From Leptospirillum ferrooxidans C2-3 (lineage in GTDB: Bacteria > Nitrospirota > Leptospirillia > Leptospirillales > Leptospirillaceae), in contig NC_017094.1 in assembly GCF_000284315.1 (NCBI RefSeq), positions 403,486 to 467,485 of the forward strand: a DNA stretch of 64,000 nt, given 5' to 3'. Each line of letters starts with the position of its first letter. Within the stretch, counting starts at the first letter, position 1. The translations under genes and the position numbers were made by a program. Under the pieces are notes generated by a model. That model was given only the letters and a program-made list of their open reading frames with translations, was not told the origin of the DNA and made no database searches. Shown here in pieces: positions 51,171 to 56,825 of the stretch.

Positions 51171-52109
51171 CTAGTATGCGTCTTCGCAAACTCTTCTGAA
51201 AAAACAGCTCTTGCAGGAATAAGCTCCCGGCATCGGAGTGAATCCCTCTTTTTCCGCGACACCGTTCAAGGGATCCTGAATCTTTGAAAGAATGGTTCTG
51301 GTGTGTTGTTCGATGCGGGAATGGGTTTCCTCAAAGATGACTTGAGAAGAAGAGGAAAGGGAGACTTTCCTGTCCGGGTTTGAGAGGTAGATCGCTCCGG
51401 TCCTGATGGTATGGGGTTCTCGACCGAATTTTTTCACGGCATAATAAGCATAAAGATCGAGTTGTGGCTGATGATTCTTGGGGCTTGGTTTTCCTGTCTT
51501 CCAATCCAGGATGATCAAGCCTTCCGGATCGTTTATAGCCAAGTCGATGGATAGATAGACCGGAAAATCGATCCCATCGGTCTGAAAAGGGATACTCTCG
51601 AGGATTTCGTCTGTCCGTATAAGGCAATCGGGTCCCAGTGACCGGATCCATTCCCAAGGTTCGGACAGGAAGAAGTTCTCAAGCGTTGCAAGGCTTTTCC
51701 CGACAATTTCCTTCCATTCGGAATCGAGGATCGCCATTTCCTGGTCGTCGTGTTCAATGAATCGATAGCTTCCCTTGGGGGGAATGGTTTCGGGAAGAAG
51801 AGCCTTTGATTCCCTGAAATCGAGCCTCATCTGGAAGAGAAGTTTTTGTTTTTCCTTCTCCGGATCGATCTCATGGCCCGCCTGGAAGGATTTCAGAATG
51901 GAAGAGATGGCTTCATGGACTCGGCTTCCGCTCCAGAGATAACGGTTGGAGAGTTTTTTGAGCCTGTAAATCTCGCGCGTCAGGGGAGAACAGTTTTTTT
52001 CCCATCCACCCCATGATCCATAGCGGGAAAACCAGTATTGTCGGGGGCATGTTTCATACTGCCCCCATTGGGAAGGGGAATAACTGAACGAATTGACAAG
52101 AAGGGCCAT
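51171..52109 (-). CDS. Cas4/RecB-like PD-(D/E)XK nuclease with Fe-S Cys
   Basis: 312 residues. N-terminal 'YSPSQWGQYETCPRQYWFSR' and C-terminal 'CKSCFFRRVC' supply four Cys that in AddB/Cas4 proteins bind a 4Fe-4S cluster. The nuclease core shows 'DLAINDPEGLIILDWKTGKP' (D...DxK) and QLDLYAYYAVKKFG. It belongs to the PDDEXK_1 family. It starts 6 bases after ttuA, so it is the third gene of that operon. No CRISPR array or helicase is near, so a repair or RNA-processing role is possible. Confidence 0.88.
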   Translation of the reverse strand: MALLVNSFSYSPSQWGQYETCPRQYWFSRYGSWGGWEKNCSPLTREIYRLKKLSNRYLWSGSRVHEAISSILKSFQAGHEIDPEKEKQKLLFQMRLDFRESKALLPETIPPKGSYRFIEHDDQEMAILDSEWKEIVGKSLATLENFFLSEPWEWIRSLGPDCLIRTDEILESIPFQTDGIDFPVYLSIDLAINDPEGLIILDWKTGKPSPKNHQPQLDLYAYYAVKKFGREPHTIRTGAIYLSNPDRKVSLSSSSQVIFEETHSRIEQHTRTILSKIQDPLNGVAEKEGFTPMPGAYSCKSCFFRRVCEDAY

Positions 52110-52115
52110 GGTTCC

Positions 52116-53075
52116 TCAGTGAGTATTGGGCGTGATGAAATTGATCGAAGATTCCGCTGTTTCTTGAGTCTCGGGAAAAGGAGACAATTTCATCCGGAGT
52201 CGACAAAAACTGCAAATATCCGTGTAGCAGGGCTCCTGGCAGACTTTGCAACTTCCTGCGGGAGGAGCGTTTTCACTTGATGGAGGAAACATCTTCTCTA
52301 AGCGCTCGAGGAATCCGAAGTAAAAAAACTGTTTTGTACCGGGAGATTCTTTTTCAATGTCATTCAAGACTTTTTTATAGAAGATCTGTTTTGCATCAGC
52401 GGACATGGGGCATTCCCTGATGACGTAATCGATTCCCTTCAGGTAGGCATAGGTGGCCATTTCTTTTTCGGTCAGGCGATTCAACGGTTTGACTTTTCGT
52501 ATGAGCCCTCCTTCAGCAGGAAGGGATGGGGACTGTTTTTCCAGATATCCATCCTGCCAATGGAGAATGTTTCCCAAAAGGCGTGAGGCTTCATCGTCCA
52601 GGTTGTGTCCCGTTGCAAGAACCTGACAGCCATGTTGCCGGGCCGCCCGATTGAAAAGGTGCCGTTTGGAAAGGCCACATGCCGAGCACGGGGGTCTTTT
52701 GGTGGATTCGGCTATAACGGGAAGTGTGGCTCCCGTTTCTGATTCGATCTCCTCGATAATAAGTGGATATCCTCTTTTTTCCGCAAAAGCTCGCGTTTTC
52801 TCGGTGCTCTCCTTCGAGTACTCAGAAATGCCGAGGTCGAGGTGGTACCCGAGGACATCAAGTTCAAGCCTTTTCAGTATCTCCCAAAGGGCGAGAGAAT
52901 CCTTTCCTCCCGAAACGGCCAGAAGAATACGGTCACCCGGTTCGAACATCCTGAATTCCTTGATGGTTTTTCGAACCTGATCCATCAAGTATTTATCAAA
53001 GCAGTCTGCACAGAATGCGGTATTGTGCCGGGGGATGGCGATAACGGCCTTTTTTTTACAGACTCGACAATTCAT
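52116..53075 (-). CDS. ttuA: TtuA-type tRNA 2-thiolation enzyme
   Basis: 319 residues. N-terminal zinc finger (Cys3, 6, 22, 25), PP-loop SGGKDS at 55-60, CSACG with Cys130 and Cys133, Cys222 in RECPMSAD, and a C-terminal zinc finger (CKVC...CSFC). In characterised TtuA three such Cys hold a 4Fe-4S cluster that receives sulfur. The family (TIGR00269) forms 2-thioribothymidine at tRNA position 54 or related thiouridines. Its ATG overlaps the stop of the carrier gene (ATGA), and its ribosome site GGGAGG is inside that gene. TtcA is less likely because the double zinc fingers are TtuA-like. Confidence 0.88.
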   Translation of the reverse strand: MNCRVCKKKAVIAIPRHNTAFCADCFDKYLMDQVRKTIKEFRMFEPGDRILLAVSGGKDSLALWEILKRLELDVLGYHLDLGISEYSKESTEKTRAFAEKRGYPLIIEEIESETGATLPVIAESTKRPPCSACGLSKRHLFNRAARQHGCQVLATGHNLDDEASRLLGNILHWQDGYLEKQSPSLPAEGGLIRKVKPLNRLTEKEMATYAYLKGIDYVIRECPMSADAKQIFYKKVLNDIEKESPGTKQFFYFGFLERLEKMFPPSSENAPPAGSCKVCQEPCYTDICSFCRLRMKLSPFPETQETAESSINFITPNTH

Positions 53076-53362
53076 GATCCGGAACCTCCCGAGATGACCG
53101 GCCTGATCTCCACCTCGTACTGCGGATCAATACTGTCTCCCGGCAAAAGAAGACTGTCTTTCTGGATGACAAGAACGGTTTCAGAATCGAGGCCCAGCTT
53201 GAGCAGCAGTGTGGAAACCCTTTTCTGGAATGGAACTTCGATATGCTCTCCTGTTTGGGCGTTGAAGACCCTAATCGGTGTCGGAACCCTATGATGGGGA
53301 GCGGTTCCTTCTTCAGTGACGGATCGTGTTGCCTCGGGACTCTGGTCCTCGGATTCTGACAA
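53072..53362 (-). CDS. ttuB: ubiquitin-like sulfur carrier (TtuB/ThiS/MoaD type)
   Basis: 96 residues. A charged ~28-residue leader precedes a beta-grasp domain: 'IRVFNAQTGEHIEVPFQKRV', 'LLLKLGLDSETVLVIQKDSL' and 'VEIRPVISGG'. The GG pair (92-93) is the normal attachment site for thiocarboxylate, but it is followed by Ser-Gly-Ser rather than ending the protein. The gene overlaps ttuA by 4 bases. It probably supplies sulfur to TtuA after activation by an E1-like enzyme encoded elsewhere. Confidence 0.82.
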   Translation of the reverse strand: MSESEDQSPEATRSVTEEGTAPHHRVPTPIRVFNAQTGEHIEVPFQKRVSTLLLKLGLDSETVLVIQKDSLLLPGDSIDPQYEVEIRPVISGGSGS

Positions 53363-53506: not shown

Positions 53507-54064
53507 TCAGCTATCCTGAGGGGGATCTGTTTTTGGCGAAATGATGGGTAATCCCAGTTTTTTAGCGGTGAGAAGGGATTTGAGGATGATCGGGTAACAC
53601 GCTTTCCGAACACCAGGATCTTCTGAGAGCATGCTGATTGCCATTGCCTGGTTCTGGAGCTCTTCTGTCAGTTCCACGCTGTTGTTTTTAGCCGGCAATG
53701 GTTTCCTGAAAGGCTTTTCAAGCCGGATGACAATCGGCAGGTGGGCAAGGTCGGGTGCGATGGCCTGAATCGTCTCCCGGATTTCGGGCAGAAGAAAAGT
53801 GCATTGTCGCTGCCACGCCTGCCGGGATGTCCTGATGATAATTCCTTCGGGTGAGATGGCTCCAGGGTAGGTATTGTCCCTGATCGGAGATGGAAGGTGG
53901 CTGTCCCAGTCCCGCTGGAAGAGGACAAGACGCACACCCTCTTCAATTCCAAAAAGGGATTTTTGGGAGCTGGCAATTGAGGAAATGGATGTGAAAGACA
54001 AGTTCGACCCCAATTCTGCCCGTAGAGGATTTGCAGGGAAAATCCTGTTTATGGAATAATACAT
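53507..54064 (-). CDS. DUF721/DciA-like protein
   Basis: 185 residues. The central part, 'WDSHLPSPIRDNTYPGAISPE', then 'IIIRTSRQAWQRQCTFLLPE' and 'LPIVIRLEKP', follows the DUF721 pattern, the family of the replicative-helicase loader DciA. The N-terminal ~40 residues and the C-terminal tail are not assigned. It may load DnaB, but family members are diverse. ATG 54064 has AAGGGA upstream. Divergent from the HNH gene; the gap to ttuB (53363-53506) shows no gene. Confidence 0.65.
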   Translation of the reverse strand: MYYSINRIFPANPLRAELGSNLSFTSISSIASSQKSLFGIEEGVRLVLFQRDWDSHLPSPIRDNTYPGAISPEGIIIRTSRQAWQRQCTFLLPEIRETIQAIAPDLAHLPIVIRLEKPFRKPLPAKNNSVELTEELQNQAMAISMLSEDPGVRKACYPIILKSLLTAKKLGLPIISPKTDPPQDS

Positions 54065-54165
54065 CCGTCCCTTTTGTCACTCAAGGGTCTTTCCTTTCAT
54101 GAAAGGCTCTCTGAAGCATTTTCGTCGGATCAGATGCTGTTGGCGTTAGGAGATTGGGGGTTCGG

Positions 54166-54735
54166 ATGTCCGGGCAAGCCCTTCTTTTGAATGCGACTTA
54201 TGAACCACTGAAAATTGTTTCCTGGGAAAAGGCCGTTACCCTGATTTTTCAGGGGAAGGTGGAAGTTGTGGAAACTTTTGACCGGGAGATCCATTCTGTT
54301 TCCATGGCGATGAAGATGCCTTCCGTTATCCGGCTCCAGCGGATGGTCTCTTTTCATCAAATTCGTCAGATGGTGCGTTTTTCCCGGGAGACCATCTTTG
54401 CCCGTGACGGTTATTCCTGCCAGTATTGCGGAAAACGATTCGATAAGAGTGATCTGACCTTTGACCATGTTTTTCCGGCCGCTCGTGGCGGGACAAAAAC
54501 ATGGGAAAACATCGTTACTGCCTGCAAAAAATGCAATCACCTCAAATCCGGACAGACCCCTGACGAGGCCGGAATGAGGCTTCTGAAGAAAGCCGCTCGT
54601 CCCCACTGGTTTCCCGCGATTCTCTTACATATGTCCCTTCGTTCTGAAATGCCCTCTTCCTGGTCAAATTATCTTTTCCAGTCCAATTATCGGGAGAGGA
54701 TCTTCTCAGCGGCTTCTTCGAAGGAGTCTTTTTAG
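54166..54735 (+). CDS. HNH endonuclease
   Basis: 189 residues. N-terminal 'ALLLNATYEPLKIVSWEKAV' is the conserved start of a widespread chromosomal HNH family. The HNH core has CQYCGKRF, TFDHVFPAARGG, 'WENIVTACKKCNHLKSG', with two Cys pairs for a zinc. The biological role of this family is not established. ATG 54166 follows GGGGG; TTG 54154 is an alternative. The 3' end overlaps murJ by 30 bases tail to tail. Confidence 0.9.
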   Translation: MSGQALLLNATYEPLKIVSWEKAVTLIFQGKVEVVETFDREIHSVSMAMKMPSVIRLQRMVSFHQIRQMVRFSRETIFARDGYSCQYCGKRFDKSDLTFDHVFPAARGGTKTWENIVTACKKCNHLKSGQTPDEAGMRLLKKAARPHWFPAILLHMSLRSEMPSSWSNYLFQSNYRERIFSAASSKESF

Positions 54736-56319
54736 CAGGGACCGGCTTCCCGAAAGAAGAAGCCGGCCCTCTTCCACCCCGGAAAAGATCGTTCCCATAA
54801 TATAAAAAGTGGCCCCTGACACAATAAGGAAGAGGATTGCCATTGCGATGAGGGAAGGGCTGGGTGCCGGAAACAGAACGGTGAACTTTTTCCACAGGAA
54901 TGCTTCCAGGATGAAAAGCCCTGAAGACCACCCCAGAACAGGGAGGAGATTCCCGAAAATTACCCATGGCCATTGTCCCATGATTTTTTTTGAACCATAA
55001 AAAAGAACCAGCTGATTGACGATAGACCCGATCGTAATTCCCACAGCCAGAGAAATGATTCCCAGCGATTTCAGGAAGACAACCGATACAATAAGGTTTG
55101 CCAGAAGTCCAAAAATGGCCGCTTTGACCGGGAATCTCGTGTTTTGTACGGCATAGTAGATTCGGACAAGGATCCGGACTCCCGAAAAGGACCAGAGTCC
55201 GATGGCGTAGCCCCAAAGCGCGAGAAGTGTTTCGTGGACACTTTGGGTCCGGAATGATCCATGCTCGAAAATGATTTTGATCAGTGGCTCTCCCAGGGAC
55301 AGGAGTCCTGCGGTTGCCGGAAGCATGAAGTAAAGTGAAAGCCTGTATCCGTCTTTCAGGGTATGAAGACTTTTTTCCTTGGCATTTTCCTCAAGACTTT
55401 GCCGGGCAAGAATGGGGAGAATGACTGTTGCGATCGCTGCTCCAATCAGTCCGAGAGGAAACTGAACAAGCCTCATCGCATAATAGAGTGAAGAAATGGT
55501 GCCCTTTGCGAGATACGATCCGAGGATCGTTGCAATCAGAAGATTCCCCTGCATCACCCACAATCCACCGATTGAAGGAATGATCAGACGCATGACCCTC
55601 CTGGCTTCGGTATGCCGGATCCCTTCTTTGAGGGACATGCTGAGATCGAGTCCAATAGAGTCCTTTTTCATGAAGAACCACTGTAGGGCCCATTGAAAGA
55701 TCCCTCCTAGAATGACTCCCATGGCAAGTCCATAAACAGGATGATGATCGGTCAGTCCGCCGGGAAGAACCATTCCGATAACAAGGCCCAGGGAGAAAAA
55801 GGCAGGAGAGAATGCCGGCAGGAAAAACTTGTTTTCGACATTCAGGATGCCCATCAGAAGGGCTGACAGTGAAATGAAGAACAGAAAAGGAAACATGATC
55901 CGGATGAGGGTGATGCCAATGGTTCTTGAGTGCGGGTCCATTGAGTATCCCGGAGCGAGTATCCGCAGGATCTCCGGGGCGAAGAGCTCTCCGAGAAGGA
56001 TAACCCCCCCAAGGATGATGACGAGGATATAAAGGACAGCGGTATAGAGTCTTGAGGCCTCCCGGACACCCTTTGTTGCGAGCGTTCTGGAAAGGGAAGG
56101 GATGAAGGCGGAGGAAAGGGCTCCTTCGGCAAAAAGCTCCCTGAGCATATTCGGAATCCTGTACCCGATATAAAAAAGATCCGAGAGGGACGTGGTTCCA
56201 AAACGATCGGCGATAAACATGTCCCGCAGAAATCCGGCAATTCTCGATATAAGCGTGGCCAGTGAGACCGATCCGGTTTTTTTTCCGAGATGCTTGGGTT
56301 CTTTTGTTTGTTCGGTCAT
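54706..56319 (-). CDS. murJ: lipid II flippase MurJ (MviN)
   Basis: 537 residues, 14 hydrophobic helices of the MATE/MOP fold. Family marks include 'LISRIAGFLRDMFIADRFG', 'RIPNMLRELFAEGALSSAFIP' and 'PLGLIGAAIATVILPILARQ'. It flips the undecaprenyl-linked peptidoglycan precursor to the periplasm. Essential; normal length. The gene converges with and overlaps the HNH gene by 30 bases. ATG 56319. Confidence 0.97.
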   Translation of the reverse strand: MTEQTKEPKHLGKKTGSVSLATLISRIAGFLRDMFIADRFGTTSLSDLFYIGYRIPNMLRELFAEGALSSAFIPSLSRTLATKGVREASRLYTAVLYILVIILGGVILLGELFAPEILRILAPGYSMDPHSRTIGITLIRIMFPFLFFISLSALLMGILNVENKFFLPAFSPAFFSLGLVIGMVLPGGLTDHHPVYGLAMGVILGGIFQWALQWFFMKKDSIGLDLSMSLKEGIRHTEARRVMRLIIPSIGGLWVMQGNLLIATILGSYLAKGTISSLYYAMRLVQFPLGLIGAAIATVILPILARQSLEENAKEKSLHTLKDGYRLSLYFMLPATAGLLSLGEPLIKIIFEHGSFRTQSVHETLLALWGYAIGLWSFSGVRILVRIYYAVQNTRFPVKAAIFGLLANLIVSVVFLKSLGIISLAVGITIGSIVNQLVLFYGSKKIMGQWPWVIFGNLLPVLGWSSGLFILEAFLWKKFTVLFPAPSPSLIAMAILFLIVSGATFYIMGTIFSGVEEGRLLLSGSRSLLKRLLRRSR

Positions 56320-56561
56320 TGGCCCTCAGGAGAATGTTTGTTGAAATGTTTTGTTTTTTCCCCTAGAATGACATCTTCGGATTTCGTGTCTTTTATCTCG
56401 GAGATTGCGGCCGATACCGTTTGATGTCGTCCTGATTCAGGAAGAAGGATGGGCGGTCTCCGATTGTGTAGACAATAGATTTTCTGCTTTTCTGGCGGCA
56501 GAATGACAGGTGAAATGGCCCACCGCTTTTGGTCGGGTCCGGTGTTTTCAAGGAGGTTCGT

Positions 56562-56825
56562 TTGGCATCCCATAGTGCTACAATCAAAGACATTCGTAAA
56601 AATGAAAAAAGACGGAATCACAATCGGCAGGCCATTTCGATGATCAGGACAATGGCCCGCAAGGTTGAGGTGGCTGTCTCCGAAGGCAAAAAGCAGGAAG
56701 CCATCACTTTTCTGGGTGAGGTGGTTCCGGTTCTTGATCATGCGGTCAATCGTCGCATCCTTCATCGCAATGCCGCTTCAAGAAAAATTTCCAGGCTGAC
56801 GAACAAAGTCAACGCACTTTCCTGA
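56562..56825 (+). CDS. rpsT: 30S ribosomal protein S20
   Basis: 87 residues, highly basic and helical: ASHSATIKDIRKNEKRRNHN and 'NRRILHRNAASRKISRL' match bS20. It binds the 16S rRNA 5' domain. The start is TTG 56562 with AAGGAGG five bases upstream; the open frame back to 56529 is rejected because it places 11 foreign residues before ASHSA. The 3' end overlaps holA by 17 bases tail to tail. Confidence 0.96.
   Translation: MASHSATIKDIRKNEKRRNHNRQAISMIRTMARKVEVAVSEGKKQEAITFLGEVVPVLDHAVNRRILHRNAASRKISRLTNKVNALS

Follow-up and report, generated by a model that had tools for sequence, protein, structure and literature searches.

A Cas4-like nuclease gene behind the conserved dciA-ttuB-ttuA block of Leptospirillum ferrooxidans

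The locus described here very likely represents a conserved dciA-ttuB-ttuA housekeeping block, to whose 3' end an independent DNA end-processing nuclease gene is attached in four of the five genera of the family Leptospirillaceae. That ttuA and the nuclease gene are paired seems to be a chance result of local genome arrangement, not a new joint pathway; the nuclease itself belongs to a known nuclease family as one of its lineage-specific members, and its operon juxtaposition is an ordinary one. Tight packing in one genome is thus no proof of a joint pathway, since a sister genus has the nuclease gene packed equally tightly, but beside an unrelated gene. This reading builds on what was observed of the gene anatomy, the conservation of motifs, the predicted fold and the differing position of the nuclease gene in related genera. 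No account of a ttuA-nuclease operon was found in the literature searched. In the following, the window is the whole stretch of 64,000 nt that was analyzed, taken from a complete genome of 2,559,538 bases (the own genome). The genera of the family (f1) are labelled g1 to g5, with the own genome belonging to g1, and individual genomes are labelled G000 and so forth.

A sequence-only reading had described three genes packed with a 4-base overlap and a 6-base gap, and all open reading frames were indeed recovered in that place, strand and spacing (Table 1). The genes ttuB and ttuA share the bases ATGA, the 6-base gap separates ttuA from the nuclease gene, and the Shine-Dalgarno sequence of the latter, GAGGA, overlaps the ttuA stop codon (cTGAGGAaccATG). 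One further gene upstream, dciA, belongs to the conserved unit with ttuB and ttuA. Neither a terminator nor a promoter was found when the junction of ttuA and the nuclease gene was searched for them. The packing of the three genes is operon-like, from which we infer co-transcription, and translational coupling within the packed genes is probable. All genes are under purifying selection and consequently none of the set is a chance open reading frame. Synonymous sites are near saturation, so that dN/dS values are rough: 0.04–0.07 for the nuclease gene and ttuA (0.05–0.07 for the nuclease gene within the genus) and 0.13–0.24 for ttuB and dciA. The nuclease gene is constrained about as strongly as ttuA and murJ.

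Table 1. Features of the locus, with positions counted in the window.
Feature	Position	Strand	Description
ttuB	53072..53362	-	96 aa, ubiquitin-like sulfur carrier; TTG start, AGGAAGG upstream
ttuA	52116..53075	-	319 aa, tRNA 2-thiolation enzyme; TtuA N-terminal LIM, PP-loop, key residues
nuclease	51171..52109	-	312 aa, stand-alone PF12705 PD-(D/E)XK; Cys box, active-site motif, model, fold match
dciA-like gene (PF05258)	53507..54064	-	lies upstream of ttuB in the conserved unit
ttuB/ttuA junction	53072..53095	-	Gly codons GGA GGT form the GGAGG Shine-Dalgarno sequence for ttuA
HNH - murJ - rpsT synteny block	54154..56825		flanking; kept in all five genera; adjacency control

The identification of the first two genes as a TtuB/TtuA pair stood up well. 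By profile matches, TtuA comprises the TtuA N-terminal LIM domain and a PP-loop domain. Its best solved relative is TtuA of Thermus thermophilus (PDB 5gha, 5b4e, 5ztb), to which it aligns over the full length (E 3e-77), while the match to the U34 thiolase 6scy is far weaker (E 4e-29). All seven published key residues, S55, D59, C130, C133, K137, D161 and C222 (PMC9821441), are found at identical numbers, among them the PP-loop residues S55 and D59. The sequence-only reading had taken Cys130, Cys133 and Cys222 as cluster ligands, which is their published role (PMC9821441). N- and C-terminal Cys pairs are present as well. The score of 274 bits lies below the NCBIfam equivalog cut-off of 450; judged by its residues and alignment, the neighbor of the nuclease gene nevertheless encodes a true TtuA. 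Since MnmA, present in the own genome, covers position 34 and a TrmFO-like protein for m5U54 is encoded as well (413 bits, just under the curated cut-off of 428.65), s2T54 in tRNA is our best guess for the predicted TtuA product. Leptospirillum, unlike Thermus thermophilus, is not known to be an extreme thermophile. E1-like ThiF proteins are also present in the own genome. By homology, TtuB would lose its tail, be activated by E1 and hand sulfur to TtuA, whose [4Fe-4S] cluster would then thiolate tRNA, most likely at the m5U54 made by TrmFO.

The match of the window's TtuB to Thermus TtuB (5ztb_E) is weak (phmmer E 0.005), and the protein is identified as the probable carrier by its position, its Gly-Gly end and the adjoining ttuA. 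The ISGG end is common to both proteins. However, the 14 family proteins aligned all differ from the Thermus protein in carrying 2–10 residues beyond the diglycine of EIRPVISGG, with three in the window (...EIRPVISGG-SGS). The glycine codons read GGA-GGN in 11 of these 14 ttuB genes and form a GGAGG Shine-Dalgarno sequence for the overlapping ttuA, while the tail codons (TCC GGA TCA in the window) fill the space up to the start codon of ttuA. Two relatives from another family, with non-overlapping ttuB and ttuA genes, have a single-residue tail or none. The simple reading is that the short tail is forced by translational coupling and then trimmed. Thiocarboxylation would need such trimming, as the Gly-Gly is present yet extended in all family members aligned, and TtuB thus apparently requires it before it can carry sulfur. 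A JAMM gene is found in all 13 family genomes searched, and in the own genome it lies beside an E1 gene and a MoaD/CysO-like carrier ending in GG-A; that the JAMM protein trims TtuB is a guess. The sulfur-carrier cluster in question (C1:1766104-1771304) comprises, besides the genes for the JAMM protease (C1:1766182-1766493) and the carriers, those for two E1/ThiF proteins and for a PALP enzyme that bears a Cys motif at its N-terminus, as well as a cysK/cysM-like gene. The MoaD/CysO-like carrier ends in AIAGGA and a ThiS-like one in MGGGL, both with a residue beyond the glycines.

The order of the genes differs between related genera. All five retain the dciA-ttuB-ttuA block, and the nuclease gene follows ttuA in four of them (g1, g2, g4 and g5; six genomes, G000–G003, G005 and G006), with junctions ranging from a 1-base overlap to a 70-base gap (five measured). 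This adjacency is old, as it spans genera whose nucleases are only 44–47% identical. In contrast, twelve g3 genomes carry dciA-ttuB-ttuA with no nuclease gene behind ttuA, and in those read further the block has the same neighbors HNH, murJ, rpsT, holA and lptE. The g3 nuclease gene instead comes after genes for a sugar-nucleotide epimerase and an LPG_synthase_TM protein and has a 4-base overlap with the second of them; ilvD lies upstream, and some genomes have a hydrolase gene downstream. Six g3 genomes hold ttuA and the nuclease gene apart (G004, G008, G010, G011, G012 and G018). Conversely, the epimerase-LPG_synthase_TM pair occurs without the nuclease gene in the own genome, G003 and G006. 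Two conserved units can thus carry the nuclease gene at their 3' end, and each of them persists without it. Trees separate g3 from the other genera (MurJ split 100/100, TtuA split 70/92) and consequently a single relocation, in either direction, is enough to explain both positions. Within the four genera, ttuA and the nuclease gene stay together no more faithfully than dciA, HNH, murJ, rpsT, holA and lptE do as a block. The suggestion that the nuclease is tied to tRNA thiolation is not supported by this comparison across the genera of the family, the outcome being the one that the sequence-only reading had itself named as refuting: the g3 orthologue lies in another cluster, beside unrelated genes, with dciA-ttuB-ttuA intact in its absence, and the two do not stay together as a module would. 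In two g3 genomes (G009, G015) the nuclease gene was found and ttuA was not; a true loss was rejected, since the neighboring murJ is missing too and these drafts probably lack that part of the genome.

The nuclease matches PF12705 well above threshold (E 1.2e-17; 65 bits against a gathering cut-off of 22), and it has weak matches to Cas4 profiles and Cas4-like matches in PADLOC. The sequence-only reading had called it a PD-(D/E)XK nuclease with four Cys. The nuclease and four conserved Cas4-type Cys held, but the protein has six (21, 40, 162, 299, 302 and 308), of which only C21, C299, C302 and C308 are conserved. This is the Cas4/AddB-type layout of one N-terminal and three C-terminal Cys. 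The active-site motif reads D189...D202-W-K204, Q216-x3-Y220. These four Cys together with H65, D189, D202, K204, Q216 and Y220 are invariant in the eight family members aligned and also in viral relatives of 23–29% identity. A scan of genome contigs gave only two same-genus relatives, the nuclease of one being 85% identical. A structure model was derived from the window protein together with sequences from the genus and from viruses (mean pLDDT 87, pTM 0.86). Its best solved match in a fold search was the Argonaute-associated Cas4-family ACE1 (PDB 9iab, 9iac; E 1.8e-9, TM 0.63/0.73), followed by AdnAB, Dna2 and SSO0001. ACE1 is also the best PDB profile match by sequence (E 1.6e-6) and has the C-terminal Cys box in common; however, identity is about 17%, and the own genome and the family genomes searched lack Piwi. 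With Cas4 (Sso0001), AddB, AdnAB and Dna2 the nuclease shares the N-terminal Cys plus CX2CX5C and the H...D...DXK...QX3Y series, yet it lacks a helicase domain and CRISPR neighbors. SSO0001 acts on ssDNA as a 5'-3' exonuclease and carries an Fe-S cluster bound by 4 Cys (PMC3466216). Since motifs and fold match the Cas4 family, AdnAB, Dna2 and SSO0001, DNA end processing is expected, and the protein is predicted to be a metal-dependent DNA exonuclease. From its sequence it is likewise predicted to hold an Fe-S cluster. Most likely it would trim or resect DNA ends independently of TtuA and might act in repair, recombination or the removal of foreign DNA.

The gene was found in 14 genomes of the family, while none of 275 Nitrospirota genomes outside it gave a full-length match (two weak partial ones). 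Among distant relatives, the best ones recovered come from viral contigs (23–29% identity). Some of these have RNase H, RecA-like and ribonucleotide reductase genes nearby, a context that suggests kinship with a phage nuclease of replication or recombination. Searches among isolated phages and on plasmids for a close match gave only weak ones. Stand-alone PF12705 Cas4-like proteins of bacteria and phages have been placed outside CRISPR, with repair or defence roles proposed (PMC5704561). The Leptospirillaceae protein has the Pfam family, the non-CRISPR setting and virus-borne relatives in common with them. It differs as a lineage-specific subgroup without UvrD fusion, and several virus-borne PF12705 nucleases from metagenomes share its SW-x-GW and YRLKKL-like motifs. 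This small, well-conserved subgroup, which is shared with viruses, could be assayed.

How far might the nuclease and TtuA nevertheless belong together? One might speculate that the nuclease works with TtuA, e.g., by cleaving tRNA without s2T54 as quality control, as the tight packing with likely translational coupling in g1 and the adjacency in four genera would fit. However, this is highly improbable: six genomes hold the genes apart, with the nuclease gene equally tight with an unrelated one, the rest of the phylum (the same 275 genomes) has no full-length relative, and sequence, fold and viral contexts all indicate DNA nucleases. An Fe-S supply or redox control shared through one promoter would be conceivable in an iron-oxidizing acidophile, since TtuA and the nuclease both carry predicted Fe-S ligands. 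It is unlikely, as the g3 nuclease gene follows epimerase and LPG_synthase_TM genes, neither matched as an Fe-S family, although the ilvD upstream blurs this test. Members of the ilvD family often bind Fe-S clusters. Against two independent functions speak the age of the adjacency and the overlap of the g1 nuclease gene's Shine-Dalgarno sequence with the ttuA stop; co-expression could be useful there. It is also improbable that in the genera with ttuB-ttuA-nuclease order the coupling gained a function, e.g., that both genes respond together to Fe-S status or that the nuclease acts on unthiolated tRNA, and that g3 lost this function or never had it.

A role in defence against plasmids or phages is possible, though doubtful. 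The closest fold, the Argonaute-associated ACE1, the PADLOC matches and the confinement to one family within the phylum would all agree with it. A Cas4-like nuclease of Synechococcus elongatus, reported to lower RSF1010 transfer or maintenance (PMC10653904), might serve as a model. However, no Piwi protein occurs in the family genomes searched, no defence genes were seen at either position of the nuclease gene, and purifying selection as on ttuA and murJ looks like that of a housekeeping gene. The chance that the protein is a Cas4 of CRISPR adaptation is close to nil: its weak Cas4 profile matches include only 33 bits for TIGR00372 (cut-off 65), there is no linkage to cas1, and Cas1 is absent from the complete own genome and most relatives with the nuclease. 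An Argonaute or CRISPR partner was consequently rejected. The nuclease as an independent enzyme of DNA ends, attached to a housekeeping block, remains our preferred reading. That it substitutes for a missing RecBCD was rejected as well, since long RecB- and RecC-like genes occur in the own genome in addition to the nuclease gene, the RecC-like one called by position and length only.

Besides the nuclease gene, the locus contains an HNH endonuclease-family gene (54154-54735) between dciA and murJ. It is 61–94% identical to its counterparts, which are found in all five genera, and in the window genome it overlaps convergently with murJ.
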